Made by a program: the position numbers and the translations under genes | Shown here: in pieces, positions 13,197-36,039 of the stretch | Layout of the letters: each line of letters starts with the position of its first letter | How positions within the stretch are numbered: the first letter of the stretch is position 1 | The notes under the pieces: model-generated | What the model was told of the DNA's origin: nothing | Databases searched by the model: none | What the model saw: the letters and a program-made list of their open reading frames with translations, nothing else | Source: Mya arenaria | Taxonomy: Eukaryota; Mollusca; Bivalvia; Myida; Myidae | Assembly (NCBI RefSeq): GCF_026914265.1 | Contig: NC_069131.1 | Coordinates: forward strand, 4,623,501-4,687,500 | Direction of reading: 5' to 3' | Length of the DNA stretch: 64,000 bases

Positions 13197-13345
13197 AGCT
13201 TCTATAAGTCAAGCTTAGAATAACTTACATCAATGTTTTTAAAGCTTTTATAAGTCATGCTTAGAATAACTTACATCAATGTTTTAAAGCTTCTATAAGT
13301 CAAGCTTAGAATAACTTACATTAATGTTTTTAAAACCTCTATAAG
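13197..13345. repeat. 46-bp tandem repeat, about 3 units
   Basis: AAGCTTCTATAAGTCAAGCT followed by TAGAATAACTTACATCAATG, repeated at about 46-bp steps. The inverse sequence occurs about twice in copy B (34970-35050) and once in copy C (28305-28340), showing copy-number change since duplication. Confidence 0.85.
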
Positions 13346-14819
13346 TAAACCACTACTTTATTAATTTGGACATCTGAAATCATCTGGGAGCCAGTTAGTA
13401 TGGTTCACTCTGAGATCACAGTTAAGTTGGTTTGTCCCAAAAGGCTGCAAGAACAAAAAGAATGTTTGTTTTTTGGGGGTGGGACAATATTTCTTTACGA
13501 TCTTTTAGTTTCACATTTTATCGTACTTTGAATCTCAGTGTGTACACAAACAACAGCCATAAAGCAAAATAATACTTCTTCTTTCAAGCTTTTCGATGAT
13601 ATATATTGAGTTTTATCAGTGAAATAACAACAGTGAAATATCAATTTGATTTTTTCACTGAAAAATAAGGAGTGAAAATATCAACTTTTGGAACGTACTT
13701 ATACATCCACTGTAGTTACTTTCCATTGATCAAAACAAAATACTTCACTTTGAAATAGAAAATGTTGGCCAAAAAGAAATTCAAATAGGGTAACATAAGT
13801 TTAAATAAAGACATACATGAATTTGGAAATAAACAACTAAGTGTTTTTTAACAAAAATGGTTATCCCGTTTTTCAAACGTTTTCTTGATCTTGAAGCCGA
13901 ATTCATACCAATCAAATTACAGACGAAAACAATTGCTCGAACATAGATAGAATGTTATATCATTGTTTGAATGTATCTTAAACTGTTTGTCGTTGTTATA
14001 AGTAATACGAACTTCCCGGAAGATTCTCAAAACAATTTTAACTGATTCACTGATATCTTTATTACCCCACCCACGCCTCAAAATTTGTCAACATCCTGGC
14101 GTGGTCTCGACTGGCAAATGACCTGTCTTCAAGCGAAACAGACTGGTCTCTGACAGTGAGATGACTGAATATCAATGTAATATGAATCACACCCTCAAAC
14201 CAAGACACATGTTATATATCCAATGATTATCCGCAATTGTTTTGCTAACACGTCCGACCGTTCAAATTTTCATTCACTAAATGGCGGCGTAGTAACTTGG
14301 TTATGTATTCTTGCCCGTTTAAACTGACAGTGTTTTCGTTATTTTTTGGAACATAGATACACTAATAAAACTTCATTGATTACTGTTCATTAAATCTTTG
14401 CACTTAATTACGAGCGAATAATAAACCATAAAAAATAATATCAGAGAACATTTTCTCATCAAACCGGAAATAGAAAATTGACAGTGAGGGGCGTCCTACG
14501 GGTAGTGGCGTAAATAACACCCTTTAAAAAAAAATCTATAAAACTCGGAAAAAACGCATTAAACAAACAAAAATTTGATTATTTCAGTGTCATATTTCAC
14601 ACGGGGTCATAGAAACACTATAGTTTCCCTTGTAGCTTCGCCACTCGTGAATTTATATGAAATAAATTCTTAAACTGAAATAAACAAATATTCTCTATTT
14701 ATTTGACAATTAACAAACGCCTATAACAATAAGCACATGTGTTTGTATCCGCTTTCTTTCTTCTTTATCTTAATGTCATCTACCACAATTTCCATTAGCG
14801 TTCAGACTTCACTTACTCC

Positions 14820-14919
14820 TAGAGGATGAAATGCACCCAGCCAGATCGGTCTTCCCGAAAATATTGCATATAAGGCCATGTGAGTGAGCTCTTGGCTCAT
14901 TCATCCGGATTAGTCAAAA
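14820..14919 (+). promoter_or_regulatory. proximal promoter of precursor gene A
   Basis: A block starting GAGGATGAAATGCACCCAGC, then CAGATCGGTC, then a TATA box (CATATAAGG, TATAAGG at 14869-14875), ends about 45 bp before the ATG. The same order and spacing recur upstream of copies B and C, with copy B almost identical. Conservation through the short leader (CATTCATCCGGATTAG before the ATG) suggests a shared transcription start about 20 bp before the start codon. Confidence 0.65.
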
Positions 14920-17900
14920 TGCTTCGTTTTCTACTGTTGGGGCTAGTGGTATCGGTGTTTTTATCGTTTCCTTCAGTGAGGGCCGACGGTATGTTTCACT
15001 TTTTCTTCCTTTATATCAAAAATAAAAAATATTTCTTGATTGTTTAATAATAATAATAATAACAATAATAATATAATGATAATATTAATTATAATAATAA
15101 GTATAACTTTAAGTATAATTATTAATATTTGTTAATAATACTTATAATAATATGCGTTTCATTGTTTATGTCTAAATGGTGTTTTGAAAATAAAAATACC
15201 GCTCACATTGCGTTGACATTTTTACATATTTCATAAGTGTCAATTTATAATTCAATGGAAACTAGAGGGACAAGCCCAGTAGTGAAGAATTCAGAAATAG
15301 CCCCTGTTAAGAGGCACACGGCAAATGCCCTAACGAAAAAGCATTGAACTAGCGAAACAAATGAATAACTACAACAAATACATTCAATTGAATTGTCATT
15401 CAAAAGTAAACCGAAATTGCTTTTTCATAGTTGTAAATTTAATGCATCAAAATATTTCAAAAGTATGCATACATGTATTTAATGAAAAAGTAAAAGATTT
15501 ATAAACAGACGTTTCCTTGTTGCTAAACCAGCATTTGGAACTCTCGTGCACCTTTTCCAAACAGCTACAAGCCCGCGTTCGAATCTATCCTTTGTTAATT
15601 CTACAGTACCAGTGGATGTTCGAAGTTGTATATTAACAGTTTGACTGGTTGCAATAACTTTTATTGGTTTAACTACGAACTGTATTGTCTAAAATATGTC
15701 CTTGGTACAAAGCCACTCGTAGGGCTCTTGATGAAACGTTTCCCTTGACCTTGGTATGTTGTCTGTGCTGTCTTATTGGCATTTACCGTTTTTGTTCAAT
15801 TATGATTATATATGATCGAACAAAACTTGATTATGTCAGTCCATTGAAACTAAAGGAATCAACCTACGACATAGAAATATTTTTATATTTATTTATTGAA
15901 ACCAAAAGTTAAAAGTAGCAACATCTTCCCAACGTTGAACGGTGAATCAGTATGAAATAAGATCAGTCTCTCACGCCGGAATTATAAACTTGACATTGAT
16001 CGGAAAAGGATCAAAGATGTAAATGATTCTATTGCAGATGAACTGACCGAACAAGAGGTACTAGAAGCGGTTGAAAGAGCGCTAGATGGTCAACTCAGGG
16101 ATACAGAGGTAAGAAAGGAACACGACTTGCTAATAGTTTGCATCCAGTTTCAATCGGTTTCGATATCGTAAAAATGCGTCAAAGATATTTTCAATTACGA
16201 TGATGGGTTAATCGCAACCTGTTGAAAACATTTGTTGTTGTATTGCAACTGGTTCTGTTTCTATACCACTTTTAAGGTCCGGGGAGCTGGTGATAGCGAT
16301 AGCGAAGAATTCGACTGTGAAGGAAATCCAGAATGCGAGAACTGTTTTGCCAACTGCGAGAGTGAAGAGGATTGTGCAGTGCTATGCGCTGTGCTCTTTG
16401 GTCAAAATAATGAAGACAAACGTGGAAGGTCAATAATTATACGTCATTATATTTTGTTTTGCTCTCAGCTGGTTATGGTTGCCAGTGTGTGTATACCACG
16501 TGATAAATTACGTCATATATGCTACGTCAGAAGGCAATATTTTGCTTAAAATGAAGACTTATAACAAAGATAACTTTGACAAAATGTTTGTCGAAGTGTT
16601 TTCAGAAACTACCCTTTCAATCAACCTCTGGTACAAGAAGGCGGGGCTCTGTTTGCGAGGTCGACTGCGTTATGTTTCATTTAAAATGATGAAGAAATAG
16701 TAAAGTTATCTTTGTTTAAAGCAAAAAAAAATTGCCTTCCGACGTAACATTTATGACACAATTTATCACGTGGTATACAAACACTGGTTGCAGTCATTAT
16801 CGATTTTATTTCCAACAAAATGATGAGATTGCATAGGGATTCATCGGTGAAATATAGACTAATGTTTATCATTTTTATATATGTCACTGTTTGACAGTTT
16901 AGACCATTTTTAAGTTAGACTCAAATGTCAACGCGCACAGGGAATATAATTATATATGATTTCAACGATATAATTTCTGCAATAACAATTGCACACGTTT
17001 TTCTTTATGGAATTTGCTCGCGTGCCCAACTGTGCGTTCATACAGCATAAACGAAAGAGAAAATGCGGCCAATCCTGAAACAAAATAATGATGACGTGTT
17101 TAATGGCAATGAACATATATGAGCCACATTCTTCGGAATAAAAAGATACCAAAATGTAATCATTGATATTAAAATATCAGACCAAAAATGCTGAAAATAG
17201 TGATTTTTTAAATGCTCTTTTACACTTCTTTATTTTAAAAAGAATGTCATTGATGCAACATTTTATAGACGATAAATGATCATTGTATTATCTCATGGTT
17301 CATAACAACGACGGTTTTGGTCCCGATTCATTTCAAAAACATACTTAGTGACTGTTTCAAGCGACCTGATTGTTCAAAAGTATTATATAATTCATATAAG
17401 TTTTCTTATTCTTTGTTCCATAAAGGTTCTAAGTAATGATACATAAGGGCTATTTATAATGACAAGACGCTTTTCTGAAGTCCCGTATCACGTCCAGTTC
17501 GCTGTGTAAACGCATTTTATACACCGAACAAGACGTGATACAGGTCGTCAGAAATAGCGCTATCGTTATTTTCATTTTATTATATGCCTCGTTCCATGTT
17601 TAAACACTCCGCTTTCAGTTTAAGCTAATGAAACTGCTATTCGATTTATACATGATACTTTGCGGAATTTAAGTGACGGAAATGACGTCACAAATCAATC
17701 ACAATAATGATTATGTACATAACTACTATGCTGATGCTATGCTGATACGGGTTTTCAATTCAAAATTTTAAATACGGCATGCTGTAGTTAAACTGATGGA
17801 TATGGGAAAAGAAAATAATAGGCATATTAAAAAAAAACTAGAAATGTACGCTTTCTTTGGTATGGATGTGTTAGATATGCCTGTCATGCACCAGTCAGTT

Positions 17901-18590
17901 GTAACCACGGCCCCAAGGTCTGGGGTATACCGGGGATAGCAGGGGAAATGGGCCGTATTTTTACCTTCCAGGTTGTCCCGCAGTGCCGGGTGAATGCAGT
18001 GGTTTTGTCTTCACGCCAAATATAGCGGGAAATAGAGTCCCTTGGGTGCGGGGGCATTTGGCGGGGGTTTCACGAGCCATTCGTCCCAGGCGAGGACTTT
18101 GCCCGGGCTTGGCTGGACCGAAAGTCAAAGTCCCTGCCGGACCTGGGGGGGGGGGCGTGGTTACAATTGACTGGTGCATTATTAATATAGTTTTGTTTTG
18201 ACTTAGTATGTGACGTCACAGTTCGAATTCAATATGCGTTATGCGTGTTCTTACTTGTTATAACGTATTTTACTTATTTCTATGGATATCATCATAACAT
18301 TTTCCGTTCTGCTCTCTCAAATTTATTTTAACAGAATACCCAATAAATGTATCCATGATTTGCCAATTATATTTTTAAAATTCGAATAAGCAGTAAAACA
18401 CACCTGTAGTAGGAAATGATATGCAGACTCAACAGAGTAAATTTTAAAACAATGTTTGCGTTCTCTATTAATTTTCAGTGTAATGACGCGAGGATGGATA
18501 CGACGAGTCAGGAACCCTTTCCGCAATATTCGCTGGCCACGAATTCCACGAATTCCACACATTCCGATTCGGCTTGGCAGAATTAAATAG
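14920..18590 (+). CDS. secreted cationic-tail peptide precursor, copy A (four exons)
   Basis: Exons: 14920-14988 (signal peptide, MLRFLL start), 16038-16108 (acidic propiece), 16277-16428 (six-cysteine acidic module ending EDKRG), 18479-18590 (cationic tail and stop). Exons 2-4 have good GT/AG sites and matching phases. Exon 3 has cysteines spaced C-x5-C-x2-C-x3-C-x5-C-x3-C among many Glu and Asp. Exon 4 encodes four residues, then a 32-residue tail starting GWIRRVRNPF and containing RWPRIPRIPHIPIR, with nine Arg, one Lys, five Pro, two Trp and no acidic residue. A basic cleavage site (TR before GW) and an acidic pro-part with a basic tail resemble antimicrobial peptide precursors. I recognise no named family. 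A neuropeptide or matrix peptide is possible. The signal-peptide exon is one base shorter than in copies B and C, so its frame closes early as assembled: either a non-functional copy or a sequence error. AATAAA lies at 18640-18645. Confidence 0.65.
15044..15165. repeat. imperfect AAT-rich microsatellite in intron 1 of A
   Basis: AATAATAATAATAACAATAA and similar. Purer triplet tracts occupy the same intron in copy C (27487-27532) and copy B (34135-34182), so the ancestral intron already carried it. Confidence 0.8.
16458..17293. mobile_element. insertion in intron 3 of copy A, containing a foldback
   Basis: Copy B reads straight from GTCATTATATT to CATAACAACGACGG, while copy A has about 840 bp between these points. 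The insert holds a foldback with arms of about 95 bp (16487-16582 and 16697-16790, sharing GTATACCACGTGATAAATT) and, at 17013-17100, the repeat also seen at 3529. It may be one composite element or two nested ones. The exact ends are not resolved. Confidence 0.7.
17889..18178. mobile_element. GC-rich MITE, intact copy in intron 3 of A
   Basis: Starts TGCACCAGTCAGTTGTAACC and ends GGTTACAATTGACTGGTGCA, an inverted repeat of about 20 bp. The body is about 290 bp and markedly GC-rich (GGGGTATACCGGGGATAGC, GCGGGGGCATTTGGCGGGGG). Copy B has an unoccupied site (ATATGCCTATAAATAACATA near 32175), so insertion followed the duplication. A G-run of about 9 sits near the right end. Confidence 0.9.
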
Positions 18591-18965
18591 CCATAGACGT
18601 GTCATCAGATCGTGCTTTAACGGAACAGAAATGCTATCAAATAAACAAAAATACTTAGGGGAGTAAAAATTGCGAAAAACAGTGCTTACACACAGTGTTT
18701 ATTAATTGCCTGTAAAATATAGCATTAGCTGTAATTATTGTTTAGAGAAACAGGAAAACAAAATATCAGTTCAAATTTGTTAAAGATACGATTGTGCACA
18801 TTTTGATAAAGGTTTCGCACATAAGAATATAATGGAATGCATGTTAACAAAATAAGTGTCACGTCCGGCTATGTATATCATGACTGCCTGCAGTTTTTCT
18901 CTAATTTAAATTTAATGATATGTGCTCGTAGTGAAAGAATTAACTCGCGATGAGCATGGTTTAGT

Positions 18966-20225
18966 TAAAGCGACAGTCCGCAAAAGTAACCGTATTTCAA
19001 AAGTTTTTAATAAGTTCCACATTGTTTCAGACCGACTGAACCGCAATTATTTTTTAAAAAATCGCTTTAATAACTTAGATTTAACAAATTGAAAATTGCC
19101 GAAAGTTGCTATTTTTAGACGGCAAAAGAGAAAGTAGGTCTACGGTTTTTCCGACTACTCTTGGGGGCGATACTATTTCCCGGTCCCGGTCTCATCCGGT
19201 CTCCTCCGGTCTCTGTTTTATAGTAGCTATCGGGCGTGATCAAAAAGGTGTTAATGACCGCGGGGGGTAATAGGATTACAAAAGATTACAGTTGATTAAA
19301 ACATTAGATATTTGATGATAATTATGTCACTATTTATTTCAAATTTTATATCAATAAAACATAAAATAAATTTAGGCAAAGATAAAAACATGAAATATGC
19401 ACATGTACTGAAATTAATGTCATGAATAACAAACACATTGAGTGTGTGTTTTTTTCATATTAAATTCAGTTATAAGTATACTATTGATAATAGTAATACA
19501 AAAAATAACAATGCTTGACTACATGTAAATCAGATATGAGTCGGATATGCAAACATGGAATTTTTCAATTGTAATCATTTATGCTTATTTTTTTTTATGT
19601 CGGGGGGGGGGGGGGGGTAAACATAAAAGGAAGAACAATAACATAACATAACATAATTTAAAAGGTGCAATTCTAAGTTACTTCATACTCTAGCCGTCCT
19701 CAATCTTTTATGCAAAAAACATGAGCATTTGTACTGCATCGCATCTTTCTCTACACCTTTAACACGAATTGCATAAATAGTGTATACCTATAACAAATTG
19801 CATAAATTAAGACATAATGTTTATATATTTTATACCATTTTGTTACATATAAAAACAAATAAGATTGTCAAAATCGTGTTATAAACATCAGCAACACAAT
19901 CCGTTGCCTGGGGCCATAAGTTATGAACCGGGAATTATGAGACCGGATGAGACCGGATTTTACGAGGAGAGACCGGGAAATAGTATCGCCCTGCGCATGC
20001 GCAAGAACTTTGGAATCCCACTGTTTTTTCTATTTATATAACCGTTAACTCTCGGGGGCCGATAGTTAAGAAGAGATATTGAAAATGACACGAAAAACTC
20101 ATTTCTAGGTCGATTTGAACCAAATTTTTTTTGGATTCGTCAGTCAGGAATGCTTATCAACACATAGATGATTTTTTTTTTTTTTTTCATGGCTAATTTG
20201 CCCGATTTGCGGACTGTCGCTTTAA
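18966..20225. mobile_element. 1.26-kb non-autonomous DNA transposon with TTAAAGCGACAGTCC ends
   Basis: Left end TTAAAGCGACAGTCCGCAAA; right end TTTGCGGACTGTCGCTTTAA. Further inside, a second inverted pair (CGATACTATTTCCCGGTC near 19170 and GACCGGGAAATAGTATCG near 19973) extends the symmetry. Copy B has the empty site GAGCATTGTTTAGTTACAATC at about 31495-31515, consistent with TA-type target use, though the exact edge is ambiguous by two bases. A G-run of 14 at about 19603 and AT-rich non-coding DNA fill the centre. Confidence 0.85.
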
Positions 20226-20419
20226 TACAATCTACAAGATCGTATCTTTAATTAAAGAAAGCAACACCCACTTTTAAATTAGTACATGCAATATGTATAT
20301 TCATAATTCTATTTCTAACCCTGTTCCTGTCTTGTAAAGTAAATTCTGAAATCTAAGTGAATTGTTTGTTTGTTTCCGCTTATGAACATGTATGTTAACT
20401 CGTATTAAAGGAAAAGGCC

Positions 20420-21173
20420 ATTCGGAACTTCTCGGTCATTTTTATCGAAAACAATCGGCGGTTTACAATGTCAGAAATCGGTACACTTTAACTACGCAGC
20501 AAGTAGTAATTTCAATTAATTTAGCAGTTTACTGAACAAATACAAGCTAAATCACTTCATTTAATTAATAATATGATTCAAAGTTTTACGAACTACTTCT
20601 ACTGATGTACCGGCATACATCCGAGGTTGTGTCCGTAGAAAATGGCCGAGGTGTTCCGAATGAGGAAAGGTTTTTGACATCTCGTTCAAGGTCGCATCGT
20701 TTAAAGGGCACCAAATCGTCCCACTAATTGAAAGTTTGGTAGTGTCATTCGAAACACTCGGCCATTTTTAACCGAAGACAACATCGGATGTTCTCGTTCA
20801 AGGTCGCATCGTTTAAAGGGCACCAAATCGTCCCACTAATTGAAAGTTTGGTAGTGTCATTCGAAACACTCGGCCATTTTTAACCGAAGACAACATCGGA
20901 TGTATGCCGTAGAAATAGTTCGTATTTTTTTAATAATATTAAAATGTAGTATTTTAACATGTGTTTGTATATCTAAGTTTAAATTGATTGTCAGTGAAGT
21001 GTATTATTGCATATATAATAAAGGTTCCAAAGAGTTAAGTCATTAAGTTAAACTGCTAAATTGAAATTACTACGCCATCTTCTTGCAGCGTAGTTAAAGT
21101 TTAAAGATTTCTGATATCGTAAACCGTCCATATAGGTTGTTTTCGATAGAAAATGGCCGAGCAGTTCCGAATG
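20420..21173. mobile_element. foldback element (CCATTCGGAACTTCTCGGTC ends), expanded copy
   Basis: The left arm begins CCATTCGGAACTTCTCGGTC and the right arm ends GGCCGAGCAGTTCCGAATGG. The shorter sister at 30911-31247 has the same ends (CCATTCGGAACCCCTCGGTC and GGCCGAAGAGTTCCGAATG). The extra length here comes from the internal tandem duplication at 20681-20902 and nested arm copies. It sits exactly between gene 3' flank and duplicon end in both A and B/C, so the insertion predates the duplication. Confidence 0.75.
20681..20902. repeat. 112-bp tandem duplication, two units
   Basis: CTCGTTCAAGGTCGCATCGT is repeated at 20681 and 20793 with the intervening sequence essentially identical. The unit contains an arm-like AACACTCGGCCATTTTTAAC. 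Confidence 0.9.
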
Positions 21174-21408
21174 GCTTAGTGTCACATCGTGCAGTATTTT
21201 TAGGCGGTTACGGCGATATGTTAACGCGCCAATTTTTGCCTCAAAAGTGAAAATATTAAAGTAAAGGTTCAAACATTAAATCAAGTGTTTCATGAGTTAT
21301 AATTGCGGTTCTTAGACATTCAGAGAAAAGGTGTTGTATTTATTTGCCATTGTGAAAATGCTGGTGAATTAATTGAGTTTGACAAGACAAGAGTATAAGT
21401 GAGTTACA

Positions 21409-23068
21409 GATTTGTGTCCTAGACTAGAAGAAATGTTGTTCTTTTAATGGATGACTCTTGTTTTAGGCCGGTTATTTATAAGTGTTATGAAGTAAATGAT
21501 ACTTTCAGATACTTAAAGAAAAAGGGGGTGTGTTGTTTTGTAAAATATTGAGTACGCCGTTACATATAAAGTTACAAATCGAGGTCTTAATCGGAATGCC
21601 ATCGAAGCTACGTGATTTCATTGGTTACAATGAGTTCAAATGTATTTCTGATAATTTCATGAACAATGTATTTAGTTTGATCTACTATAATATGAGTATA
21701 ATAATTACATTGCTCAATTCAGATTGAAAATTTTCTAGTTGCAAAGTTGTCCTGATGTAACGTCGATTAGTGCATTCAGTCTGCATTGTGTACAGGGCGA
21801 CGTCAAAATGCTTCATTTACGTTTTATGACGTAATGGACCGAAAACAAAATGGTTAAGAAGACATATATCTAAGCGACCATACTATCATTGAGTACTAGG
21901 CACTAACACATCCAACCTATAAGATCTTTGGCTACCACTTACAATTTTTATTATAGGTTTTATTATAAAACAAATGGGCTTTCTCATGATAATGTCATAG
22001 ATAAAACTGACAGAAGTCGGATGCAAACCCGGATATATGCAAACAATAATGTATTTTTATGTTGAGTATTACTTAAGCATGCATTAAAACCGCCAATTAT
22101 TTACTCTTCGTTTAACTTTTTACTCATAAATCAAAATCACTTAAGTAAAATGTAAACGTCATCCAACATTTCTATTTCATAATGCTTCATATATTTCATA
22201 GCCACCCTAATTTGATTGCTGATAACCAGTTGATAAAATATGTATTTATAAGTCGAAAACTATATATAAAATATATATCTAAGTCGAAAAATAGCGTTTA
22301 CATATCGAGGGGTGAAAGCGAAAAGGTTCTATCTGCTTCTTTATTTAATGTCACTTAGAACATTTCCGCATTCACCCCTCGATATGGGAAACACATTTTA
22401 GTAGGTAACAACTATTTGAATCTTTGCAATTTGAATTATCGCTTCGATGACAATTTTTATGTTCATTGTTTGTACTTGTGTTTGTACATGCTATAGGTAA
22501 ATAAGTACCTGAACGTATAATTGAAGTAAATGGTAAAATTTTGCTCTAGTTTAGTTCTCAGTATTATATATCAACAGGCTGGCCTAAATTTCACGAAACT
22601 TCTTAAGCTTAACAGGTTTAAGTAGCTTATTTCAATTAGCCAAAATACATACTTAAATTGAATTTTGATAAATGAAAAATGGTTTAATGTAATTAATATA
22701 TAGATTATTCCTATCTAAAGTATAAAAACTCCAAAATAAATAAATATGACGCAATTTATTGAAAAACAAATATAGTGAGCTTAGTTTAAATCTGTTATCA
22801 GGGGCTAAGAAGATTCGATAAATTGGGACCAGTACATTTGCTATTTTAATACAGTCTTACTCCGTTCGTAAATATCTCATAACTAGAGTAATTACCAATC
22901 ATAGTCCCGCCAACACATTTATTACTCTGTATAAACATTATGAGTGCGATTATTCAAGTTAACTTATTTGTAATATTGGGCGAGTCATGACTTGTTCTGT
23001 GTACAACACTGTGTTTTGCGTTTTAAGTTAATTTTGACAACATTTTCAAAACAAATGGCTACCGGGAA
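21409..23068. other. gene-free stretch with one foldback
   Basis: AT-rich DNA with no supported exon. At 22299-22392 the arms ACATATCGAGGGGTGAAAGCG and CGCATTCACCCCTCGATATG form a perfect-looking inverted pair around about 45 bp. Confidence 0.6.
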
Positions 23069-25440
23069 CGGTGTAACACTCAACTGTGTAGGACGATAGA
23101 ACACTCAACTGTGGAGGACGGTAAAATACTCAACTGTGGAGGACGGTAAAACACTCAACTGTGGAGGACGGTAAAACACTCAACTGAGGAGGACGGTAGG
23201 ACACTCAACTTTCGAGGACGGTTGAACACTCAACTGTGTAGGACGGTAGAACACTCAACTGTGTAAGACGGTAGAACACTCAACTGTGGAGGACGGTAGA
23301 ACACTCAACTGTGTAGGACGGTAGAACACTCAACTGTGTATGACGGTAGAACACTCAACTGTGTAGGACGGTAGAACACTCAACTGTGTAGAACGGTAAA
23401 ACACTCAACTGTGGAGGACGGTAGAACACTTAACTGTGGAGGACGGTGTAACAGGAGGACGGTAGAACACTCAACTGTGTAGGACGGTAGAATACTCAAC
23501 TGTGGAGGACGGTAGAACACTCAACTGTTGAGGACAGTAGAACATTCAACTGTGGAGGACGGTAGAACACTCAACTGTGTAGGACGGTAGAATACTCAAC
23601 TGTGGAGGACAGTAGAACACTCAACTGTGTAGGACGGTAGAATACTCAACTGTGCAGGACGGTAGAACACTCAACTGTGTAGGACGGTAGAACACTCAAC
23701 TGTGGAGGGCGGTAGAACACTCAACTGTGTAGGACGGTAGAACACTCAACTGTGGAGGACGGTAGAACACTCAACTGTGCGGGACGGAAGAACACTCAAC
23801 TGTGTAGGACGGTAGAACACTCAACTGTGTATGACGGTAGAACACTCAACTGTGTAGGACGGTAGAACACTCAACTGTGTAGGACGGTAGAACACTCAAC
23901 TGTGGAGGACGGTAGAACACTGAACTGTGGAGGACGGTAAAACACTCAACTGTGGAGGACGGTAAAACACTCAACTGAGGAGGACGGTAGGACACTCAAC
24001 TTTCGAGGACGGTTGAACACTCAACTGTGTAGGACGGTAGAACACTCAACTGTGTAAGACGGTAGAACACTCAACTGTGCAGGACGGTAGAACACTCAAC
24101 TGTGTAGGACGGTAGAACACTCAACTGTGTATGACGGTAGAACACTCAACTGTGTAGGACGGTAGAACACTCAACTGTGTAGAACGGTAAAACACTCAAC
24201 TGTGGAGGACGGTAGAACACTTAACTGTGGAGGACGGTGTAACATTCAACTGTGGGGGACGGTAGAATACTCAACTGTGGAGGACGGTAGAATACTCAAC
24301 TGTGTAGAACGGTAGAACACTCACATGTGGAGGACGGTAGAACACTCAACTGTGTAGGACGGTAGAATACTCAACTGTGGAGGACGGTAGAACACTCAAC
24401 TGTTGAGGACAGTAGAACATTCAACTGTGGAGGACGGTAGAACATTCAACTGTGAAGGACGGTAGAATACTCAACTGTGGAGGACAGTAGAACACTCAAC
24501 TGTGTAGGACGGTAGAATACTCAACTGTGCAGGACGGTAGAACACTCAACTGTGTAGGACGGTAGAACACTCAACTGTGGAGGACGGTAGAACACTCAAC
24601 TGTGTAGGACGGTAGAACACTCAACTGTGGAGGACGGTAGAACACTCAACTGTGCGGGACGGAAGAACACTCAACTGTGTAGGACGGTAGAACACTCAAC
24701 TGTGTAGGACGGTAGAACACTCAACTGTGTAGGACGGTAGAACACTCAACTGTGTAGGACGGTAGAACACTTCACTGTGGAGGACGGTAGAACACTTAAC
24801 TGTGGAGGACGGTGTAACATTCAACTGTGGGGGACGGTAGAATACTCAACTGTGGAGGACGGTAGAATACTCAACTGTGTAGAACGGTAGAACACTCACA
24901 TGTGGAGGACGGTAGAACACTCAACTGTGTAGGACGGTAGAATACTCAACTGTGGAGGACGGTAGAACACTCAACTGTTGAGGACAGTAGAACATTCAAC
25001 TGTGGAGGACGGTAGAACATTCAACTGTGTAGGACGGTAGAATACTCAACTGTGGAGGACAGTAGAACACTCAACTGTGTAGGACGGTAGAATACTCAAC
25101 TGTGCAGGACGGTAGAACACTCAACTGTGTAGGACGGTAGAACACTCAACTGTGGAGGACGGTAGAACACTCAACTGTGTAGGACGGTAGAACACTCAAC
25201 TGTGGAGGACGGTAGAACACTCAACTGTGCGGGACGGAAGAACACTCAACTGTGTAGGACGGTAGAACACTCAACTGTGTAGGACGGTAGAACACTCAAC
25301 TGTGTAGGACGGTAGAACACTCAACTGTGTAGGACGGTAGAACACTTCACTGTGCGGGACGGTAGAACACTCACAATTGTTTGATGATAGAACACTCAGC
25401 TGTATGGGACTGTAGAGCACTCAACTGTGGGGGACTCGCT
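23069..25440. repeat. 25-bp satellite, about 95 units, with higher-order repeats
   Basis: Unit GGTAGAACACTCAACTGTGT plus AGGAC (25 bp) with variant positions (GTGGAGG, GTGTAGG, GTGCAGG, AATACTC). Marked variants recur at fixed distance. TCACATGTGG lies at 24321 and 24896, and the GTAACATTCAACTGTGGGGG variant repeats with the same 575-bp shift (23 units). An earlier block (ACTGAGGAGGACGGTAGGAC, TTTCGAGGACGG) recurs at a 791-bp shift. The array therefore grew by duplicating long blocks. It sits between the inverted copies A and C. Confidence 0.95.
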
Positions 25441-25949
25441 GTATGAGAACCTGACATGCTCGTGAATTGAATCGTACGAGCAACATTTGAACCGTTATTT
25501 TAATCATCAATTTTCTTCTATTAAAATGCAGTTAGACATGTCGATAAATATATGGGAAACACTCAAAACAACATGAACAATGTTATAACATGCAGATGTT
25601 CACATGCTTCAATGACCATCGTTTTTAAGTTGTCAATTTCCTTTCAGTATATTCGTTATTCAAATTTTCTCAAAACGAACGGAACTCATACATGTATATA
25701 TACATGATTACAGTGCATAATCTTGCAGATAATCCCGCCACTGCAGTTACATCCTGGCAGTTGCAATAGAATAAAGTATAGTACATTACGTATCGCGTGG
25801 ACTCTCTCTTTATTTTACTCCAAATATAACAATAATTATTTAAATTTATTAATTGTTAATGGTTTTTTTTCATACAACGATAACAGATTAGCTACATCGA
25901 ACTTAGATAAAAAAAAATCTTAGGTCTATAGACACGTGCTAGGTACCTA
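25441..25949. other. gene-free stretch
   Basis: AT-rich DNA beyond the satellite. Nothing recognised. Confidence 0.55.
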
Positions 25950-26262
25950 TCAAGGGCGGGTACAGGAATTGACGTTAGATGGGGTTTTACTTAGGGGCAC
26001 AATCTTTTGACATTCGCCCTCCCTCAGAGCCGAAATTGTAATACTAGTAGTAGTTAGCAGGGAAGGTGGGCAAACCCCCACGAAAAGTTTAACAATTTCT
26101 TGTCCGAAATGGTGCATTTTAGCGTATTTCATTACATTATTCTCATATATTGACATAAAAAAGTAACCTTGGAAGATTTGAGGCGGGGGCGGGGGGCGGG
26201 GGGCGTTGATGGAAGGGGGACGCCGAGAGACCCACAACCAACCCCAGCCTGGAGCCATATTT
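25950..26262 (-). CDS. possible tail exon of precursor gene C
   Basis: An open stretch on the minus strand follows an AG (GTTAATCGACAG, end at 26263). Joined in the phase left by exon 3, it would encode a split Arg codon, N-M-A-P, then GWGWLWVSRRPPS and a Pro-rich run (APRPPPPPQ). In A and B the Gly-Trp also comes exactly four codons after the split codon (VMTR-GW, ESKR-GW). Against it: there is no pyrimidine tract, no homology to the A/B intron just upstream, and the frame then runs on for some 80 ordinary residues with acidic ones included. It may be the decayed or recombined tail exon, or chance. Confidence 0.3.
26182..26208. repeat. G-rich tract
   Basis: GGCGGGGGCGGGGGGCGGGG followed by GGCG, three long G-runs close together, with possible G-quadruplex potential on the plus strand. 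On the minus strand it is the Pro-coding run of the candidate tail exon C. Confidence 0.7.
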
Positions 26263-26470
26263 CTGTCGATTAACATTCTGGTTCGTAAGTTATATTTTGT
26301 TAATAAACTGTATGCCACAAGCTAGATTTGTTATGTTTTTTTGCAAATTCGAAACAGGTAAAGGGGTAAAATCGCTTGAAACAGCACTAAGTTTGTTGTT
26401 GAAATAAGTCGATACCAAAACAGTCCTTGTTCTGCACCATAAGTTAATATAATGACGTATAATTATTGAC

Positions 26471-27482
26471 CTTCCACGTTTGTCTTCATTCTTCTGACCG
26501 ACGAGCAGCGCACAGAGCATTGCACAATTCTCTTCATTCTCGCAAGTGGCAAAACAGTTCTCGCATTCTGGATTTCCTTCACAATCGAATTCTTCGTTAT
26601 CTCTACCACCAGCTCCCCGGACCTAAAAAGTGGAAAAGAAACAGAACCAGTTGCAATACAACAACAAATTTTTATCAACAGGTTGCGATTAACCTACCAT
26701 CATATTTGAAAATATCTTTGACACGTTTTTACGATATCGAAACCGATTGAAACTGGATGCAAACTATTAGCCAGCCGTGTTCCTTTCTTACCTCTGTATC
26801 CCTGAGTTGACCATCTAGCGCTCTTTCAACCGCTTCTAGTACCTCTTGTTCGGTCAGTTCATCTGCAATAGAATCATTTACATCTTCGATCCTTTTCCGA
26901 CAAATGTAAAGTTTGTAAGTTCGGCGAGAGACAATAATCTTATTTCATATCGTGTCAACGTTCAACGTTGCTTGTAGCTGTTTGGAATAGGTGCACAAGA
27001 GTTCCAAATGTTGTTTTAACATGGTTTAGCAACAAGGAAACGTCTGTTTATAAATATTTATTTTTTTACAAAAACATGTACGCATACTTTTGAAATATAT
27101 TTAATCATGGACGTTACAAACTCTTTTAACTATGAAAATGCAATTTCGGTTTACTTTTGAATGGCAATTCAATTAAATGGAAGGCATGATTGGTCCGTTG
27201 AAGTGTTGTATTTGTAGTAGTTATTCATTTTTTTTCGCTAGTTCAATGCTTTCCCGTTTGGGCATTTGCCTTGTACACGTACCTTTTCACAGAGGCTACT
27301 TTTGAAGTTTTAACTGCTGGGCTTGTCCCTGTAGTTTCCACTGAATGATTAATAAGAACTGTGAAACACGTATCATTATCATTTTTTTATCATTATTATT
27401 ATTTATTTATGTTTTATCATCATCATTGTGTGTAATTACTTTTTTATAAGAATGATGATGATTATTATTGTTATTTCATTTA

Positions 27483-27533
<51 letters not shown>

Positions 27534-27862
27534 GAAGTTGAAAAGTTGTATATGATCTTTATGCATACATCGCACAATACATATTTCAAATATCAATAAT
27601 GTCTACGTTACAAATAAACAACAAACTTTAAACAAATTATGTACATAAAGCATTCCTAGTTGAAATCGTAACACATTTATTTATACAGGCATTTATAAAC
27701 GATCTGGACAGATCGTCGCTGGCGTAGTATTATGATAAAATCAAGAAATATTTTTCAGTATTAATAAAAAAGAAGAAAAAAGACAAACATACCGTCGGCC
27801 CTCACAGAAGGAAACGATAAAAGCACCGATACCAAAAGACCCAACACAAGAAAACGAAGCAT
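26471..27862 (-). CDS. secreted cationic-tail peptide precursor, copy C (exons 1-3)
   Basis: Minus-strand exons: 27793-27862 (signal peptide MLRFLVLGLLVSVLLSFPSV, then RAD), 26792-26862 (DELTEQEVLEAVERALDGQL, identical in codons to copy A), 26471-26622 (six-cysteine module, same spacing as A, with GGRDNEEF at its start and NEDKRG at its end). Splice sites GT/AG and phases 1, 0 and 2 agree with A and B. Frames are open in all three exons. The expected last exon is not found by homology; the candidate at 25950-26262 is weak. The copy may therefore lack its mature peptide, or may have acquired a different one. Confidence 0.65.
27487..27532. repeat. (ATT)n microsatellite in intron 1 of C
   Basis: About fifteen uninterrupted ATT triplets, at the position matching the triplet tracts in introns 1 of A and B. 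Confidence 0.95.
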
Positions 27863-27965
27863 TTTGACTAATCCGGATGAATGAGCAAAGAGCTCACTCA
27901 CATCGCCTTATATTTAGTATTTGTGGACAGACCAATCTGGGTGGGTGCGTTTCATCCTCTGGCGG
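27863..27965 (-). promoter_or_regulatory. proximal promoter of precursor gene C
   Basis: On the minus strand: GAGGATGAAACGCACCCACC, AGATTGGTC, then AAATATAAGGCGATGTGAGTG and the leader TTCATCCGGATTAGTCAAA before the ATG. It is the most divergent of the three promoters but keeps the TATA box and spacing. Confidence 0.6.
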
Positions 27966-27969
27966 GTAA

Positions 27970-28867
27970 GTACAATCTGAAAGTTAATGGAAAAAGTGGA
28001 AGATGTCATTAGGATAAAGAATGAGGCAAACGGGGGCAATTGAGATGGGGGGGGGGGTGCTAAATGACTGTTGTTTATAGTTATTTTACACTGATCGGAC
28101 ATGCGAAATATGGTAAAAGTGTGAAAGTAAAATACGAACTCCCAAGATAATCTGTGAAATACTAAATATATTTAAATATTGATCGTAAGGAAAACCAACT
28201 TGTTTTACAAAAATAAATAAACCTTTTTTAGGTTGATCTCTGAGTTGCCAATACTATAACTGGCTTCCAGATGAAATTAATACAGTACATTGGTTTACTG
28301 GTAGAAGCTTTAAAACATTGATATTAGCTATTTTGATTTACACGCTCGTCTAAGGACTCTAGACAAAGCAACTGATGGTGCAAATTGGATGTGTAATGAT
28401 TTGATTGTGGAATGTTGCAAAAAAGATTCCATCAAGTTAAACACTTAAAGACATATAAAAAATACACGAGTTACTGATCTTAAATGGAAACAAATGAAGC
28501 ATTGTTTCTGAATGGTGTTAGTGGTTTTTATTCCAAAACTCTTTTGGCAACTTTCTGTAAATTAGTATTAACTTTTGTGTGAAAACAGTACACTAATAAT
28601 CACTTAACTAATTCATAATAAAATTTATGTGGAACGTCTTAAACAGAAATAGCCATAAACACTTCAAGTGACAGGGTTTTTGCAAACTTCAGGGTTTTAA
28701 CAAAGTACATATTGATACGCAGACGTTTGTCTCATTCCTGATATAAAATACAAGAATCCTTATTTTCAAGACGGGGTATATACTAACAAGAAACATTATC
28801 TCAATGAGCTATTTCCCGACTTTCTCGTAAAAGGCTTGTTAAATTCGTACCTATATGCAATTAAAAG
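27970..28867. other. 5' flank of gene C, no further gene
   Basis: Shared almost throughout with copy B (34563-35576) and partly with A. No exon was recognised. Confidence 0.55.
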
Positions 28868-29698
28868 TAGGGCTGCAACAATATGCCAAATTCCTTATTG
28901 CAATATAATGCAACCTCCAAAACCCATATTGTAATATATTGCATTAAATTGCAAGATCTTATGAATTCAAATAAGATAGGTCTTCTGTTACTTAAACGTG
29001 TAATTTAATAGTACATCAGTAAAAAAATTGGGAACATTTATTGTCAATTTAATCTTTTGCACTGATCAATCATTGAAACATTCAAAACTATAGAAACAGT
29101 TGAGGTAAAACATTGACCAAAACTGTCTTTGGAAAAATGTTCCCATACAACGCTTTTTCCCTTTGGATTTCGAACGAATTCACTCTCACTCCAAACGTCT
29201 GCCATTGTTATGAAATTATTGAGAGTTCGATATAATTCGAGGTGTACCAAATTCGATGGCCGTACTAAAGTGCAAATTTTGATTTAAATAAACAAAAATA
29301 TAACTCTAACGTGCGGAAGAATCCATACGTGAAATCAATTTATATAAGTGTTGGTCATAATAATTGAATTGTTTGCAACTAAAAACTTATAAGCTGTTTA
29401 TTATTTAGAACTTCTTAAAAATTAAATCGATTCTGTGTTTTTGTGTAGGATAAAAACATCTTAATTTGAAACCATTTTGCCATTTAAGAGAGCACATGTG
29501 CCTTTTCCTTACTTAATGACGACTGCGTTTTCTGTGTTTCGTTGTTCAAAGTGTTGACGTTTGCTATTCACGTATTGTTTACATTTTTGAAAACATTTAC
29601 ATCAACCATAGATGATTTAAAGATTAACGTATTGCAATACAATATTTTAAACAGTATACCGGTATATATCGGTATATCGATATATTGTTGCAGCCCTT
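28868..29698 (-). mobile_element. hAT-type DNA transposon remnant with 8-bp target duplication
   Basis: Ends TAGGGCTGCAACAATATGCC and GATATATTGTTGCAGCCCTT, flanked on both sides by ATTAAAAG (28860-28867 and 29699-29706), the 8-bp duplication typical of hAT. On the minus strand near 29060-29210 it encodes MADVWSESEFVRNPKGKSVV followed by WEHFSKDSFG, resembling the start of a BED zinc finger, as in hAT transposases. Only this N-terminal piece of about 60 codons remains, so it is non-autonomous. Copy B holds the same element with its far end missing (35577-36039). Confidence 0.85.
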
Positions 29699-29706
29699 AT
29701 TAAAAG

Positions 29707-30511
29707 CCAATCGTTTTCATTTTATATATGTACTTTCATTTGATGATGTATCTACGTTTAATGAAATACTTTTAGAAAAAAAATTGTTTCGAATATATGA
29801 CTTATATGTGATGGACACAAATAAAAATAAAAATAAAAAATTGTAAATTGTATTTATTGCAGTGATACACATAAATTAGTTAAGCGACAAATCAAATGCA
29901 TACAATTGGTCGGTATATGCAATACGCCCAATGAAATAATCCACATTAAAATTAATTCGGTTCTAGGTGTATTCGGGTGTCACTCGTTACGAGATATTTG
30001 GGCAATAGCCTTTTATCTCCAAAAAGGTTTATACTTATTGGTATGATTACCGGGCTTGTCCGTATGGTGTTCAATGTAAAATGTATCCGACTTCTGTTCA
30101 TTCAAGTCCCTGTTTATCTTGTTGATCTTTCACAGTTTCAAAATGTCGTGGAAAAGCTCATTTGTTTGTCTGTTGTAGCGTTTATAGCTGGGGTGTAAGG
30201 ATTTAAAATACAAAAAAAGAATCATCGCTGAACTTCAAATGAAGGAATCATTCCGTCATTTTATTGATAAAGGTTATTTGTCGGCCAGTGAGGTCACAAA
30301 GTTACTTCAGTTTTTCTTTATGACGCCCTATACACAAAATATGATCACACTAAATGATATCAACCTTAAGAAAAAAAGCTAATTGCAACATTATGCACTT
30401 CATGTAACCGAAGTCGTAGATTAACGCCAACGTCATTAAGACGAATGTTTAAATTTTGAAAATTTAGCTATATAGCCAGTGTTAACGCAGTGTAACCGAT
30501 GTAAATCTGCT
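29707..30511. other. 5' flank of duplicon C, no gene
   Basis: Matches 36040-36730 of copy B and 11067-12690 of copy A in blocks. No conserved open frame across the three copies, so I see no gene. Confidence 0.6.

Positions 30512-30557
<46 letters not shown>
30512..30557. repeat. (CA)n microsatellite at the C/B junction
   Basis: About 23 CA dinucleotides followed by degenerate CACG-rich sequence to about 30625. It marks the 5' limit of duplicon C. Confidence 0.95.
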
Positions 30558-30560
<3 letters not shown>

Positions 30561-30910
30561 AACCACGCACGAACTCACACACGCAAGCACGCGCGTGCGC
30601 ACGTACGCATTCACTCATATACGCACGCACGAACACTCCCCCCACACGTTTTTTTCCTAATAGTATAATAACAGTCATAACAACTCATTTTTACTCTTGT
30701 CTTGTAAAACTCAATAAATTCACCAGCATTTTCACAATGACAAATAACTACAACACCTTTTCTCTGAATGTCTAAGAACCGCACTTATAAGTCATGGAAC
30801 ATTTGATTTAATGTTTAAACCTTAACTTACTGTCACTTTTGAGGCAAAAATTGGCGCATTAACATATCACTGTAACCACCTAAAAAAATATGTAGGAGGT
30901 TACACTAATC

Positions 30911-31247
30911 CATTCGGAACCCCTCGGTCAGTTTCTATCGAAAACAACCTCGTATGTATATGGAAGGTTGCAATGTCAGAAATCTTTATAATTTAACTAT
31001 GCTGCATGTAGATCGCGTAGTAATTTTAATTTAGCAGTTAACTTTATGGCTTAACTCGTCGGAATCTTAATTATGTATGCAAGTATACACTTCACTGACA
31101 ATCATTTTAACTTAGATATACAAATACAAGTCAAATTATACATTTCAGTAATAATATTATTCAAAATTTTACGAGCTACTTCAACTGATATACCGGCATA
31201 CATCCGATATTGTTTTCGATAGAAAATGGCCGAAGAGTTCCGAATGA
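30911..31247. mobile_element. foldback element (CCATTCGGAAC ends), short copy
   Basis: About 337 bp with ends CCATTCGGAACCCCTCGGTC and GGCCGAAGAGTTCCGAATG. Arms include TCTATCGAAAACAA and TTGTTTTCGATAGA. It is the same family and the same position relative to the gene as 20420-21173. Confidence 0.8.
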
Positions 31248-31888
31248 CACTTATCCAAACATTCATTTTGTGGGAAGATTCGGCGAGCTTTAACTAGTGA
31301 GACCTTAAAACGAGATATCAAATACCTTTTCCTTTAATAAGAGTGAACATACAGGTGTATAAGCGGAAACAAACAAACAATTCACGTAGATTTCAGAATT
31401 TATTTTACAAGACAGGAAGAGGGTTAGTAAGGGAATTATGAATATACATATTACATGTACTAAAGTGGGTGTTGCTTTCTTTGATTTAAGATACGATCTT
31501 GTAGATTGTAACTAAACAATGCTCATCGCGAGTTAATTATTTCACTACGAGCACATATTATCAAGTTTAACTTAGAGAAAAACTGCAGGCAATCATGATA
31601 TGCATGTCCGTATGTTACACTTATTTTGTTAACATGCATTCCATTAAAAAGTTATGCTCGAAAACTTACCATTATCAAAATCTGCACAAACGCATCTTTA
31701 ACAAATTCGTGCTAAAATAATGTTCCAAATTTTGTTTTGATGTTTCTCTTAACAGTAATTACAACTAACACCATATATTACAGCCAATTAATAAACACTG
31801 TTGTTTGTAAGCACTTTCTTCGCAATTTAAACTCCTAAGTCATTTTTTTTCATAGCATGCTGTTCAGTTAAGACCCGCTCTGGTGTTC

Positions 31889-34135
31889 TTATCTGGGATA
31901 AAAAGATTGACGTCGGCGCCACCACCATCCTCGCTTACTTTCCCTGAAAAGTGATAGAGAAAGAGATAGAGAAGACAAAGGTTGTTAAAATATTACTCTG
32001 TTGAGTCTGAATATCATTTCCTACTACACGGATAAATTGATTGGGTATTCTTTTAAAACAGATTTAAGGAACCAAAACGGAAAATGTCATGATGATAGCT
32101 CTAGAAATACGTTTTATACGTTATAACAAGTAAGAACACGAATTACGTTGTCAAAACAAAAGTATGTTATTTATAGGCATATCTAAAACATCCGTACCAA
32201 CGAAAGCATACAATTTTAGATCTTATGCGACTGTCGCATTCCCATATCCATCAGTAAAAAATTACAGCGTGCCGTATTTAAGAATACACATCACGCTACT
32301 GTCGTGTGTTTTTTTCAAAGCCGTATCTGCATAGTAGTATTTGTTAAATGCTACATTTTACAAATCTATGATTTTTCAAGATTTTACTAACATTAACTTA
32401 CCATTCAGTAATACATTTTCTAAGGAAGAAACGATTTTGAATATATTCAGTTGCTGAATAGTGTTTATATTCAAGACAATGCTCCAAATCATTAATGCGA
32501 TTGATTTGTGACGTCATTACCGAAACTATTATCCGATGAAATGTCGTGAAAAATCTCATTGCAGTTTCAAAGCTTAAATTTGAAACGGAGTGTTTAAGCA
32601 TGGAAATAATCAAACGAGGCATATAATAAAAGAAACATAACGATATAGTTCTTTCTGACGACCTGCATCACGTCTTGTTTGGTGTATAAACATGCGAACT
32701 GGACGTGATACGGGACTTCAGAAAAGCGTCCTGTCATAATAGCCCTTATATATTATAACATAGAACCTCTAATATGAAAAAAAGAACTTTTATGAATTAA
32801 ATAATACTTTTTAACAATCAGGTCGCTTGAAACAGACACTAAGTATGTTGTTGAAATGGGACTCACACCGTCGTTGTTATAAACCATAAGTTAATATAAT
32901 GACGTATAATTATTGACCTTCCACGTTTGTCTTCATCCTCCTGACGGAAGAGCAGCGCACAGAGCATTGCACAATTCTCTTCATTCTCGCAGTTGGCAAA
33001 ACAGTTCTCGCATTCTGGATTTCCTTCACAGTCGAATTCTTCGCTATCGCTATCACCAGCCGCCCGGACCTTAAAAGTGGTATAGAAACAGAACCAGTTG
33101 TAATACAACAACAAATGTTTATCAACAGGTTGCGATTAACCTAACATCATAATTGAAAATATCTTTGACGCATTGTTTGCGATATCGAAACGGATCGAAA
33201 CTAGATGCAAACTATTAGCCAGCCGTGTTCCTTTCTTACCTCTGTATCTCTGAGTTGACCATCTAGCGCTCTTTCAACCGCTTCTATGATCTCTTGTTCG
33301 GTCAGTTCATCTGCAATATAATCATTTACATCTTTGATCCTTTTCCGACAAATGTCAAGTTTGTAATTTCGGCGAGAGGCAATAATCTTATTTCATATCG
33401 TGTCACCGTTCAACGTTGGGAATAGCTTGCTATGTTTAACTTCTATTTCCGATAACTTAATATCAAAATATTTGTTTGTCGAAGGTTGTTTTCTTTGGTT
33501 TCATTGGATTAACATAATGGAGTTTCATTGAATTATCATAATGGGACAAAAACGGAGCCAATAAGACAGCACAGACACCATGCCAAGGTCAACGGAACCA
33601 TTTCATCAAGAGCCCTACGAGCGGCTTTGTACCAAGGCGATTTTGTCGACAATACAGTTCGTAGTTAAACGAATAATTGTTTTTGAAACTAGTCAAACTT
33701 TTATCATACAACTTCGAACATCCACTGGTACTGTAGAATTAACATAGGATAGATTCGAACGCTGGCTTGTAGCTGTTTGGAATAGGCGCACGAGAGTTCC
33801 AAATGCTGTTTTTAACATGGTTTAGCAATAGCAAGGAAACGTCTGTTTATACTTATTTTACTTTTCCATTAAACTCATGTATGCATACTTTTGAAATATT
33901 TTGATACATGGACTTTACAAACCTTTTCAACTATGAAAAAGCAATTCGGTTTACTTTTGATTGACAATTCAATTGAATGAATGTATGATTGGTCTGTTGT
34001 TGTGTTTGTATTTGTTGTAATTATTCATTTGTTCCGCTAGTCCAATGCTTTCTCGTTTGAGCAGTTGCCGTGTGCCTCTAAACAGATGCTACTTTTGAAG
34101 TTTTCACTACTGGGCTTGTCCCTGCAGTAGTAGTA

Positions 34136-34182
<47 letters not shown>

Positions 34183-34463
34183 GTAACATTATTATTATTT
34201 TATTTTTATTTTATCAAATATACAACAAACATAAAAGACATCATGCACATATAGCATTCCTCTTTGAAATCGTATTATTATTAATAAGTCATTTGATAAC
34301 GATCTTGATGCATCGTCGCTGGTGTTAAAATTATGATACAATCAAGAATTATTTTTCATTTTTGATAAAAAAAGAAGAAAGAGTCAAACAAACCGTCGGC
34401 CCTCACAGAAGGAAACGATAAAAAAACCGACACGAATAGTCCAAATACAAGAAAACGAAGCAT
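31889..34463 (-). CDS. secreted cationic-tail peptide precursor, copy B (four exons, open throughout)
   Basis: Minus-strand exons: 34394-34463, 33240-33310, 32918-33069, 31889-31943. Phases 1, 0 and 2 agree and all frames are open, giving about 115 residues. Exon 1 encodes signal peptide MLRFLVFGLFVSVFLSFPSV, then RAD. Exon 2 encodes a short acidic helix-like piece (DELTEQEIIEAVERALDG). Exon 3 encodes an acidic module with six cysteines (C-x5-C-x2-C-x3-C-x5-C-x3-C) ending EDEDKRG. Exon 4 encodes ESKR, a dibasic site, then a 13-residue tail GWWWRRRQSFYPR and stop. The tail has four Arg, three Trp and no acidic residue, like short Trp/Arg-rich antimicrobial peptides. The donor of exon 1 is GTTTGT rather than the GTATGT of A and C. 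No canonical AATAAA lies close after the stop. Family not recognised. Secretion and processing are inferred, and the cysteine module could itself be a functional product. Confidence 0.75.
34135..34182. repeat. (TTA)n microsatellite in intron 1 of B
   Basis: About fifteen TTA triplets, orthologous in position to those in A and C. Confidence 0.95.
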
Positions 34464-35576: not shown

Positions 35577-36039
35577 TAGGTCTGCCACAATATGCCAAAT
35601 ACCGTATTGCAATATATTGCAATATCCAAAACCCATATTGAAATTTATTGCATGATATGGCAAGATCTTATGAATTGAAATAAAATAGGTCTTCTGTTAC
35701 TTAAAAGTGCATTTTGATAGTACATATAAAATAAAGGCATCAGTACATAAAATGGGAACATTTATTTTCAATTTAATCTTTTGCACTGATCTGTCATTGA
35801 AACATTCAAATGATTATAGAAACAGTTGAGGTAAAACATTGACCAAAACTATCTTTGGAAAAATGTTCCCATTCAACGCTTTTTTCGTTGGGATTTCGAA
35901 CGAATTCACTCTCACGGACGTCTGCCATTGTTATGAAATTATTGATAGTACGATATAATTCGAGGTGTACCAAATTTGCTGGCCGTACTAAAGTGCAAAA
36001 TTTGATTTAAATAAACAAAAAATATAACTCTAACGTGCG
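35577..36039 (-). mobile_element. truncated hAT-type remnant, copy B
   Basis: Begins TAGGTCTGCCACAATATGCC after the same ATTAAAAG flank as the copy in C and carries the same BED-like start (ESEFVRNP and EWEHFSKDSFG on the minus strand). The right part is absent; sequence passes after AACGTGCG directly into duplicon flank. It was therefore present before B and C separated and shortened later. Confidence 0.8.

Follow-up and report, generated by a model that had tools for sequence, protein, structure and literature searches.

Vertebrate cathelicidins are encoded by four exons, of which exon 1 codes for the signal peptide, exons 2 and 3 for a conserved pro-domain and exon 4 for a variable peptide, and their mature peptides include Trp-rich as well as Pro/Arg-rich tails (PMC3487008). 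A similar gene plan was detected in a bivalve, the soft-shell clam Mya arenaria, both in a window of 64,000 nucleotides (C10:4623501-4687500, the whole stretch of DNA analyzed) and in the genome searched (18 contigs, 1.216 Gb). Two gene copies in the window, A and C, are complete four-exon genes with intron phases 1-0-2 coding, in this order, for a predicted signal peptide, an acidic piece, an acidic six-Cys module, a basic site and a cationic, Trp-containing tail. As in the cathelicidins, the variable peptide lies in the fourth exon (PMC3487008). What separates the clam proteins from cathelicidins is the lack of a cathelin domain in Pfam searches (A and C, then eight family members), a pro-part of 70-78 residues compared to 99-114, a basic release site in place of an elastase site and the molluscan host. 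We put the probability at roughly 0.7 that these genes, to date found in Mya arenaria alone, make up one multigene family and encode secreted precursors of antimicrobial type, and likewise that the pro-part serves as carrier and charge mask while the tail is an effector freed at the basic site. The plan is most likely cathelicidin-like, with exon 4 providing a variable cationic effector, and combined with an unrelated pro-part.

Other precursors share some of these properties. Mussel CRP-I genes, also from bivalves, are multigene, have conserved signal and pro regions and a basic cleavage site, and their last exon, the fourth, encodes a hypervariable mature peptide (PMC10138031). The mature part of CRP-I has a knottin-like C-C-CC-C-C array, whereas the Cys module of the clam proteins lies in exon 3, before the cut; exon 4 contains no Cys array, and a CC pair occurs only in exon 3 of locus L014. 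Myticalins and modiocalins are linear, cationic, hypervariable bivalve peptides with a dibasic site and an anionic companion (PMC12294457, PMC5577615). Their order is cationic mature peptide, basic site, anionic extension, while in the clam it is reversed (anionic part, basic site, tail). Moreover, they are described there as three-exon genes restricted to Mytiloida, with a mature peptide devoid of Cys and no Cys module (PMC12294457, PMC5577615). The BRICHOS-related polychaete peptides nicomicin, arenicin and capitellacin possess a signal, an acidic Cys-containing pro-region, a dibasic site and a C-terminal cationic peptide (PMC6265681), but the clam proteins gave no BRICHOS match in Pfam and their precursors comprise 108-134 residues, compared to 239 for nicomicin (PMC6265681). 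In echinoid centrocins a prosequence is followed by a chain starting with Gly or Trp, and the pro-region is more conserved than the variable mature chains, as in the clam; they consist, however, of heavy chain, interchain and light chain, while the clam precursors have a single tail and a Cys-containing pro-part (PMC4805251). The general plan of animal antimicrobial precursors (secreted, acidic pro-part, basic site, cationic peptide) was recognized, with eight of nine tails cationic and signal peptides assigned by eye. Since neither the cathelin and BRICHOS domains nor the CRP-I array nor the myticalin order was found, the family belongs to none of the cathelicidins, CRP-I, myticalins and BRICHOS precursors. 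By its anatomy, the design looks like that of independently evolved antimicrobial-peptide precursors.

The statement of the first-pass annotation that no described family has this layout agrees with the database searches. Pfam, NCBIfam and PDB yielded no convincing relative; weak matches (best E 0.015 in Pfam, E 0.03 in NCBIfam, E 2.2 in PDB) were dismissed. When 5.77 billion proteins were searched once with a single sequence and twice with profiles, 5, 11 and 11 proteins were returned, respectively, all of them from Mya arenaria. As these searches require shared words of five residues, distant kin in other bivalves are possible. In the open-access PubMed Central (PMC) literature no title on these genes was found, and six RefSeq gene identifiers remained unmatched (identifiers beginning with MAR_ lay outside the search). 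The family is real, unnamed and apparently lineage-restricted.

In the window, the letters from 14500 to 24000 on the plus strand and from 34700 to 23990 on the minus strand were scanned and exons were placed by script. Three copies, A (plus strand), B and C (both minus strand), have the same first three exons. Exon 1 is closed by a phase-1 donor (GTATGT or GTTTGT), exon 2 is acidic (ELTEQE..EAVERALDGQLRD) and exon 3 is acidic as well, carries the pattern C-x5-C-x2-C-x3-C-x5-C-x3-C and ends with DKRG in phase 2, by which the exons, phases, Cys spacing and DKRG site reported earlier were confirmed for all three. In copy A, a TATA-like box (14869..14874) lies 50 bp before the ATG. Exon 1 (14919..14988) starts at 14919, not at 14920 as annotated at first, and codes for the putative signal peptide MLRFLLLGLVVSVFLSFPSVRA before the donor GTATGT. 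It is followed by the acidic exon 2 (16038..16108; ELTEQEVLEAVERALDGQLRDTE, the acidic piece of the product being DELTEQEVLEAVERALDGQLRDTE), by exon 3 (16277..16428) with the acidic six-Cys module and the terminal DKRG, and by exon 4 (18479..18590), which codes for SVMTR/GWIRRVRNPFRNIRWPRIPRIPHIPIRLGRIK and a stop, identically in model P0001. As previously noted, the A tail is cationic and lacks acidic residues: exon 4 encodes SVMTRGWIRRVRNPFRNIRWPRIPRIPHIPIRLGRIK with a net charge of +11 and no acidic residue. Copy C, which had been described without a tail exon, comprises exon 1 (34394..34463), exon 2 (33240..33310), exon 3 with the six-Cys module (32918..33069) and, on the same minus strand, an exon 4 at 31943-31889 (31889..31943). 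Behind the acceptor ..tctatcacttttcag this exon codes for the tail RESKRGWWWRRRQSFYPR (net +6, a single acidic residue before the proposed cut) and reads RESKR/GWWWRRRQSFYPR up to the stop, so that GWWWRRRQSFYPR stands after KR. The products of A and C have 134 and 115 residues, and the predicted signal peptide ends, by eye, with SVRA.

For copy B, exon 1 (27793..27862), exon 2 (26792..26862) and exon 3 with the six-Cys module (26471..26622), all on the minus strand, are sound, and no supported exon 4 follows. The tail beginning with GW that had been ascribed to this copy, originally without coordinates, probably corresponds to an in-phase reading found by eye, RNMAPGWGWLWVSRRPP.., from 26262 downwards. 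It was rejected. Its acceptor has no pyrimidine tract, and the sequence below 26379 recurs in cluster 2, 4.3 Mb away on the same contig, apart from any gene copy and there with a 17-base gap and further differences. Similarity of B to copy C2 of that cluster ends at 26372, 99 bp after exon 3, and similarity to copy A2 already at 26446; matches to exon-4 flanks obtained in the search for B map to copy A's own region. Because the family similarity ends early and the GW stretch stands apart from genes in cluster 2, B is treated as lacking exon 4.

The family is not confined to the three copies first described. Genome searches with exon 3, whose totals are lower bounds, revealed at least 16 loci; three further exon-3 matches at E 1.6 to 6.3 were set aside as chance. 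Contig C10 harbors A, B and C, A2 and C2 in cluster 2, and L016 at 23.26 Mb. The others are L013 and L038 (C14), L014 (C15), L015 (C2), L032-L035 (C7) and L036 and L037 (C9). Eleven loci are intact over four exons and code for nine distinct proteins. Exon boundaries and phases are common to the nine distinct intact copies, which is more than chance. The exon 3 acceptor is mostly ..taag or ..tag before GTC, its donor nearly always (A/G)AAG/GTCA, and exon 4 is preceded by tttcag in the 12 copies compared. No Rel/NF-kB-like site was found by a simple pattern on one strand of the 400 bp upstream of 14 copies. The remaining five loci (B, L032, L035, L036, L037) are defective or incomplete. No exon 4 was detected within 12 kb of L032 when TTTCAG/TTTTAG acceptors preceding a basic tail were sought. 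In L035, exon 3 is shortened and the frame is lost. L036 and L037 have a TAA in the exon 3 frame though the acceptor is kept, their exon 4 is out of frame, and exon 1 was not found within the stretch examined. These five loci and the near-identical duplicates could mean that the family mostly consists of relics, silent copies left by recent duplication and modelled by similarity only. This is very improbable, since 11 loci are intact over four exons with their splice sites kept, 11 of 14 copies have a TATA-like box 49 to 52 bp ahead of the ATG (the strict pattern is missing in L013, L016 and L032), and the proteins, 48-83% identical to A, have kept their open frames, which would not survive decay.

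Some observations concern the arrangement of the copies. The surroundings of A (window 13185-22078) recur inverted 4.3 Mb away (C10:8960-8968 kb; L011, L012), where blocks of 99.6-100% identity lie beside blocks of about 89-97%; this may stem from gene conversion, from a segmental duplication of recent date or from a duplicated piece of the assembly. On C7, four copies (L032-L035) lie within about 2.1 Mb (43.78-45.89 Mb). Two of them, L033 and L034, are 1.2 Mb apart and encode identical proteins, with a difference of about 2.9 kb between the introns that precede exon 4.

The readings from DNA were compared with predicted gene models. For seven of the nine distinct intact proteins an NCBI model is letter-identical to our reading. 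The tails of A, L013, L014, L015 and L033 were read before the models were retrieved, and all five are identical (P0001, P0006, P0009, P0007 and P0008, respectively); the product of A is also GenBank MAR_030498 (P0001). C2, the near twin of C, corresponds to LOC128206845 (P0002), and P0003 corresponds to L016. Among the models examined, none equals C. For L038, our pro-part and tail correspond to model P0011, whose N-terminus departs from our reading; exon 1 occurs there as three tandem copies in 72-base steps (L038:2475-2684). GenBank P0004 (MAR_030499) was rejected as a reading of C, as its start resembles an upstream open frame and its exon 4 is in another phase. Duplicated open frames (MADV..SEFVRNP..) occur upstream of B and C on the minus strand (window 29044-29283 and 35806-36006); MAR_030499 appears to join the frame at 35806-36006 to exon 2 of C and is probably a chimeric model.

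The tails of the remaining distinct copies are RERKRGWWWRPRQSFYPR (C2), SERKRWFWRRSSSSSSSSRNTGRFISRGIWRRYVFGN (L016), SERKRWWGWRTLRRSITPSPKQTSC (L013), SGRKRWFGGIAVRLAYHLGASFWRSYWRDH (L015), SKKETRRRWWHYNHKNGNPVG (L014), SERMRFGRFRNRPVLQAVPGGWRRSYRHKP (L033) and SDDTQKKGWWYT (L038). Eight of nine tails have net charges of +5 to +11, and the pro-parts range from -6 to -20. Close to the start of exon 4, seven of nine copies have two basic residues (KR in C, C2, L013, L015 and L016, RR in L014, KK in L038), and in all nine, judged by eye without a null model, W or F stands one or two positions after a basic residue. All nine proteins retain the six Cys, which may pair in disulphides, as does exon 3 of the five other loci, with the spacing altered only in L014. 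The opposite charges of the two parts in eight of nine copies and the two basic sites each in C (DKRG, SKR) and C2 (EKRG, RKR) would also suit an associated or two-chain effector whose halves act together, like the heavy and light chains of centrocins. We consider this improbable, as eight of nine tails offer no Cys for a covalent link; only that of L013 ends in Cys. Neuropeptide precursors also carry dibasic sites and signal peptides, and tail A ends with LGRIK, which contains a Gly-Arg pair. That the products are neuropeptides or mucus, adhesive or mineral-related peptides which are basic by chance is nevertheless still less probable, because the mature part of a neuropeptide is conserved as a rule and here the tail is the least conserved coding part.

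This variability was quantified with the nine distinct intact copies; excluded were the five defective or incomplete loci as well as A2 and L034, whose products duplicate those of A and L033. Over the 36 pairs, mean identity was 74% in the 5′ flank, 83% in exon 1, 85% in exon 2, 77% in intron 2, 74% in exon 3, 79% in the 100 bp before exon 4 and 61% in the 3′ untranslated region (UTR), while the coding part of exon 4, of which no more than 65% could be aligned, reached 53%. In fixed windows, 58% was obtained for the first 80 bp of intron 3, nearly as low as exon 4. This value is largely an artefact of fixed windows with insertions, since local alignment gives 91-99% over 139-148 bp for L013, L015 and L016; in the first 150 bp nothing was alignable in L016/L033 and only 25 bp in A/C. 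By local alignment of the whole intron 3, the L013/L015/L016 pairs are 84-85% identical over 98% of the length, L016/L033 71% over 71%, A/C 80% over 37%, and C/C2 94%. In exon 4 the same trio is 45-63% identical over alignable sites (30/73, 29/79 and 36/66 sites differ, with 29 to 39 gap positions), and the differing sites number 39/88 in L016/L033, 27/52 in A/C and 2/52 in C/C2. Compared to intron 2 and the 100 bp preceding exon 4 taken together, the coding part of exon 4 differs more in five of six pairs (Fisher, 8e-5 to 6e-14), the exception being the very recent pair C/C2 (p 0.61); the six were taken from 36 possible pairs, share copies and are not independent. The pro-part changes more mildly (mean proportions of nonsynonymous, pN, and synonymous differences, pS, of 0.213 and 0.269), exon 3 showing no significant rate difference to intron 2 in the six pairs. 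CGAATTCCA-like repeats in tail A and an AGC run in L016 suggest short-repeat slippage as one source of tail change.

A number of results weigh against the antimicrobial-type reading or parts of it. The excess of exon 4 over the 3′ UTR is clear in only three of six pairs (L013/L016, L016/L033, A/C), for which reason part of it may be a local effect. By codon counts in the nine copies, pN in the tail (mean 0.52) does not exceed pS (mean 0.75), both being near saturation and derived from poor alignments. The tail thus changes fast, but positive selection does not follow. Its alignment is also unstable, L013/L016 being 70% identical over 66 sites in one alignment and identical at 43/73 sites elsewhere. 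The L038 tail has only 12 residues and a net charge of 0, and in A and L033 the exon-4 site is a single Arg. Other results point the opposite way. As a control against chance, the three frames of exon 4 were compared. The spliced frame is richest in Trp in all nine copies and most positive in seven of nine; in L015 it shares the highest charge (+5) with a second frame, and in L038 it has a charge of 0 compared to +5 for one of the others. Also in favour of the reading, tail charge is the more positive the more negative the pro-part is (r -0.80, eight values with C and C2 pooled), although this value disregards kinship and leans on L038. An AlphaFold model of the precursor had a mean predicted local distance difference test (pLDDT) of 51.6 and a predicted template modelling score (pTM) of 0.24, too weak to serve as structural evidence; it faintly suggests two short helices spanning the CxxxC pairs (residues 65-73 and 78-89, pLDDT about 66) and no secondary structure in the tail. 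Helical moments of six segments did not differ significantly from shuffles (0.08 to 0.84). Finally, and again against the reading, the pro-part of L013, L015 and L016 evolves roughly as fast as the introns, and few of its changes are synonymous (21 to 0 in L013/L016), so that diversifying pressure may act on the Cys module as well. Brisk amino-acid change of this kind, as for an interacting surface, the six Cys kept in nine of nine proteins and a basic site that allows two products would fit an acidic six-Cys module that itself provides the main activity, as a small disulphide-rich ligand, as an inhibitor or as a metal binder, with a removable or anchoring basic tail. We regard this as unlikely, though as the least unlikely of the alternatives, since the tail keeps an aromatic residue after the basic one in nine of nine copies and a positive charge in eight of nine despite its sequence turnover, which is unexpected if it were dispensable.

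Weighing these points, the secreted-precursor reading of the first-pass annotation, with acidic pro-part, basic site and cationic Trp tail, holds on the basis of gene models and 16 loci. The antimicrobial type is the best fit to a conserved pro-part, a hypervariable cationic tail and a multigene organization, judged from anatomy and evolution only. On the antimicrobial-type reading, exon 1 would provide the signal peptide and exons 2 and 3 a strongly acidic pro-part, the short acidic segment plus the six-Cys module, which would fold in the secretory pathway and mask or escort the basic tail by charge. A proprotein convertase might then cut at the basic residues encoded early in exon 4 and free a short, usually cationic peptide with an aromatic residue first or next to first, which may act on microbial membranes or inside microbes.

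The window contains further features. Between A and B, a 25-base minisatellite (unit ACGGTAGAACACTCAACTGTGGAGG, about 95 units) extends over 23068-25435 and is longer in cluster 2. A 242-residue open frame at 38459-39187 (minus strand) resembles by eye the end of a retrotransposon reverse-transcriptase protein and gave no Pfam match at E 0.001. Large tandem repeats occupy 3751-5376 and 61713-64000 (a 24-base unit in about 69 copies; 28- and 31-base units), and the long open frames within them are probably repeat artefacts.

Mya arenaria is known for transmissible cancer. If the antimicrobial-type reading is true, the genes constitute a new, apparently lineage-restricted family of effector precursors in the bivalve immune repertoire. 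It is conceivable, though we hold it at somewhat less than even odds, that one clam lineage has evolved an independent invertebrate counterpart of the cathelicidins, in which one acidic six-Cys pro-domain carries interchangeable, fast-evolving tails (Trp-rich, Ser-repeat, Pro/Arg), each in its own last exon, and the charge of the pro-domain co-evolves with the tail. The cathelicidin gene plan would then have been reached with an unrelated pro-domain, and nine distinct natural tails on one pro-part would represent a within-genome series for the tolerance and control of differing peptides by a pro-domain.

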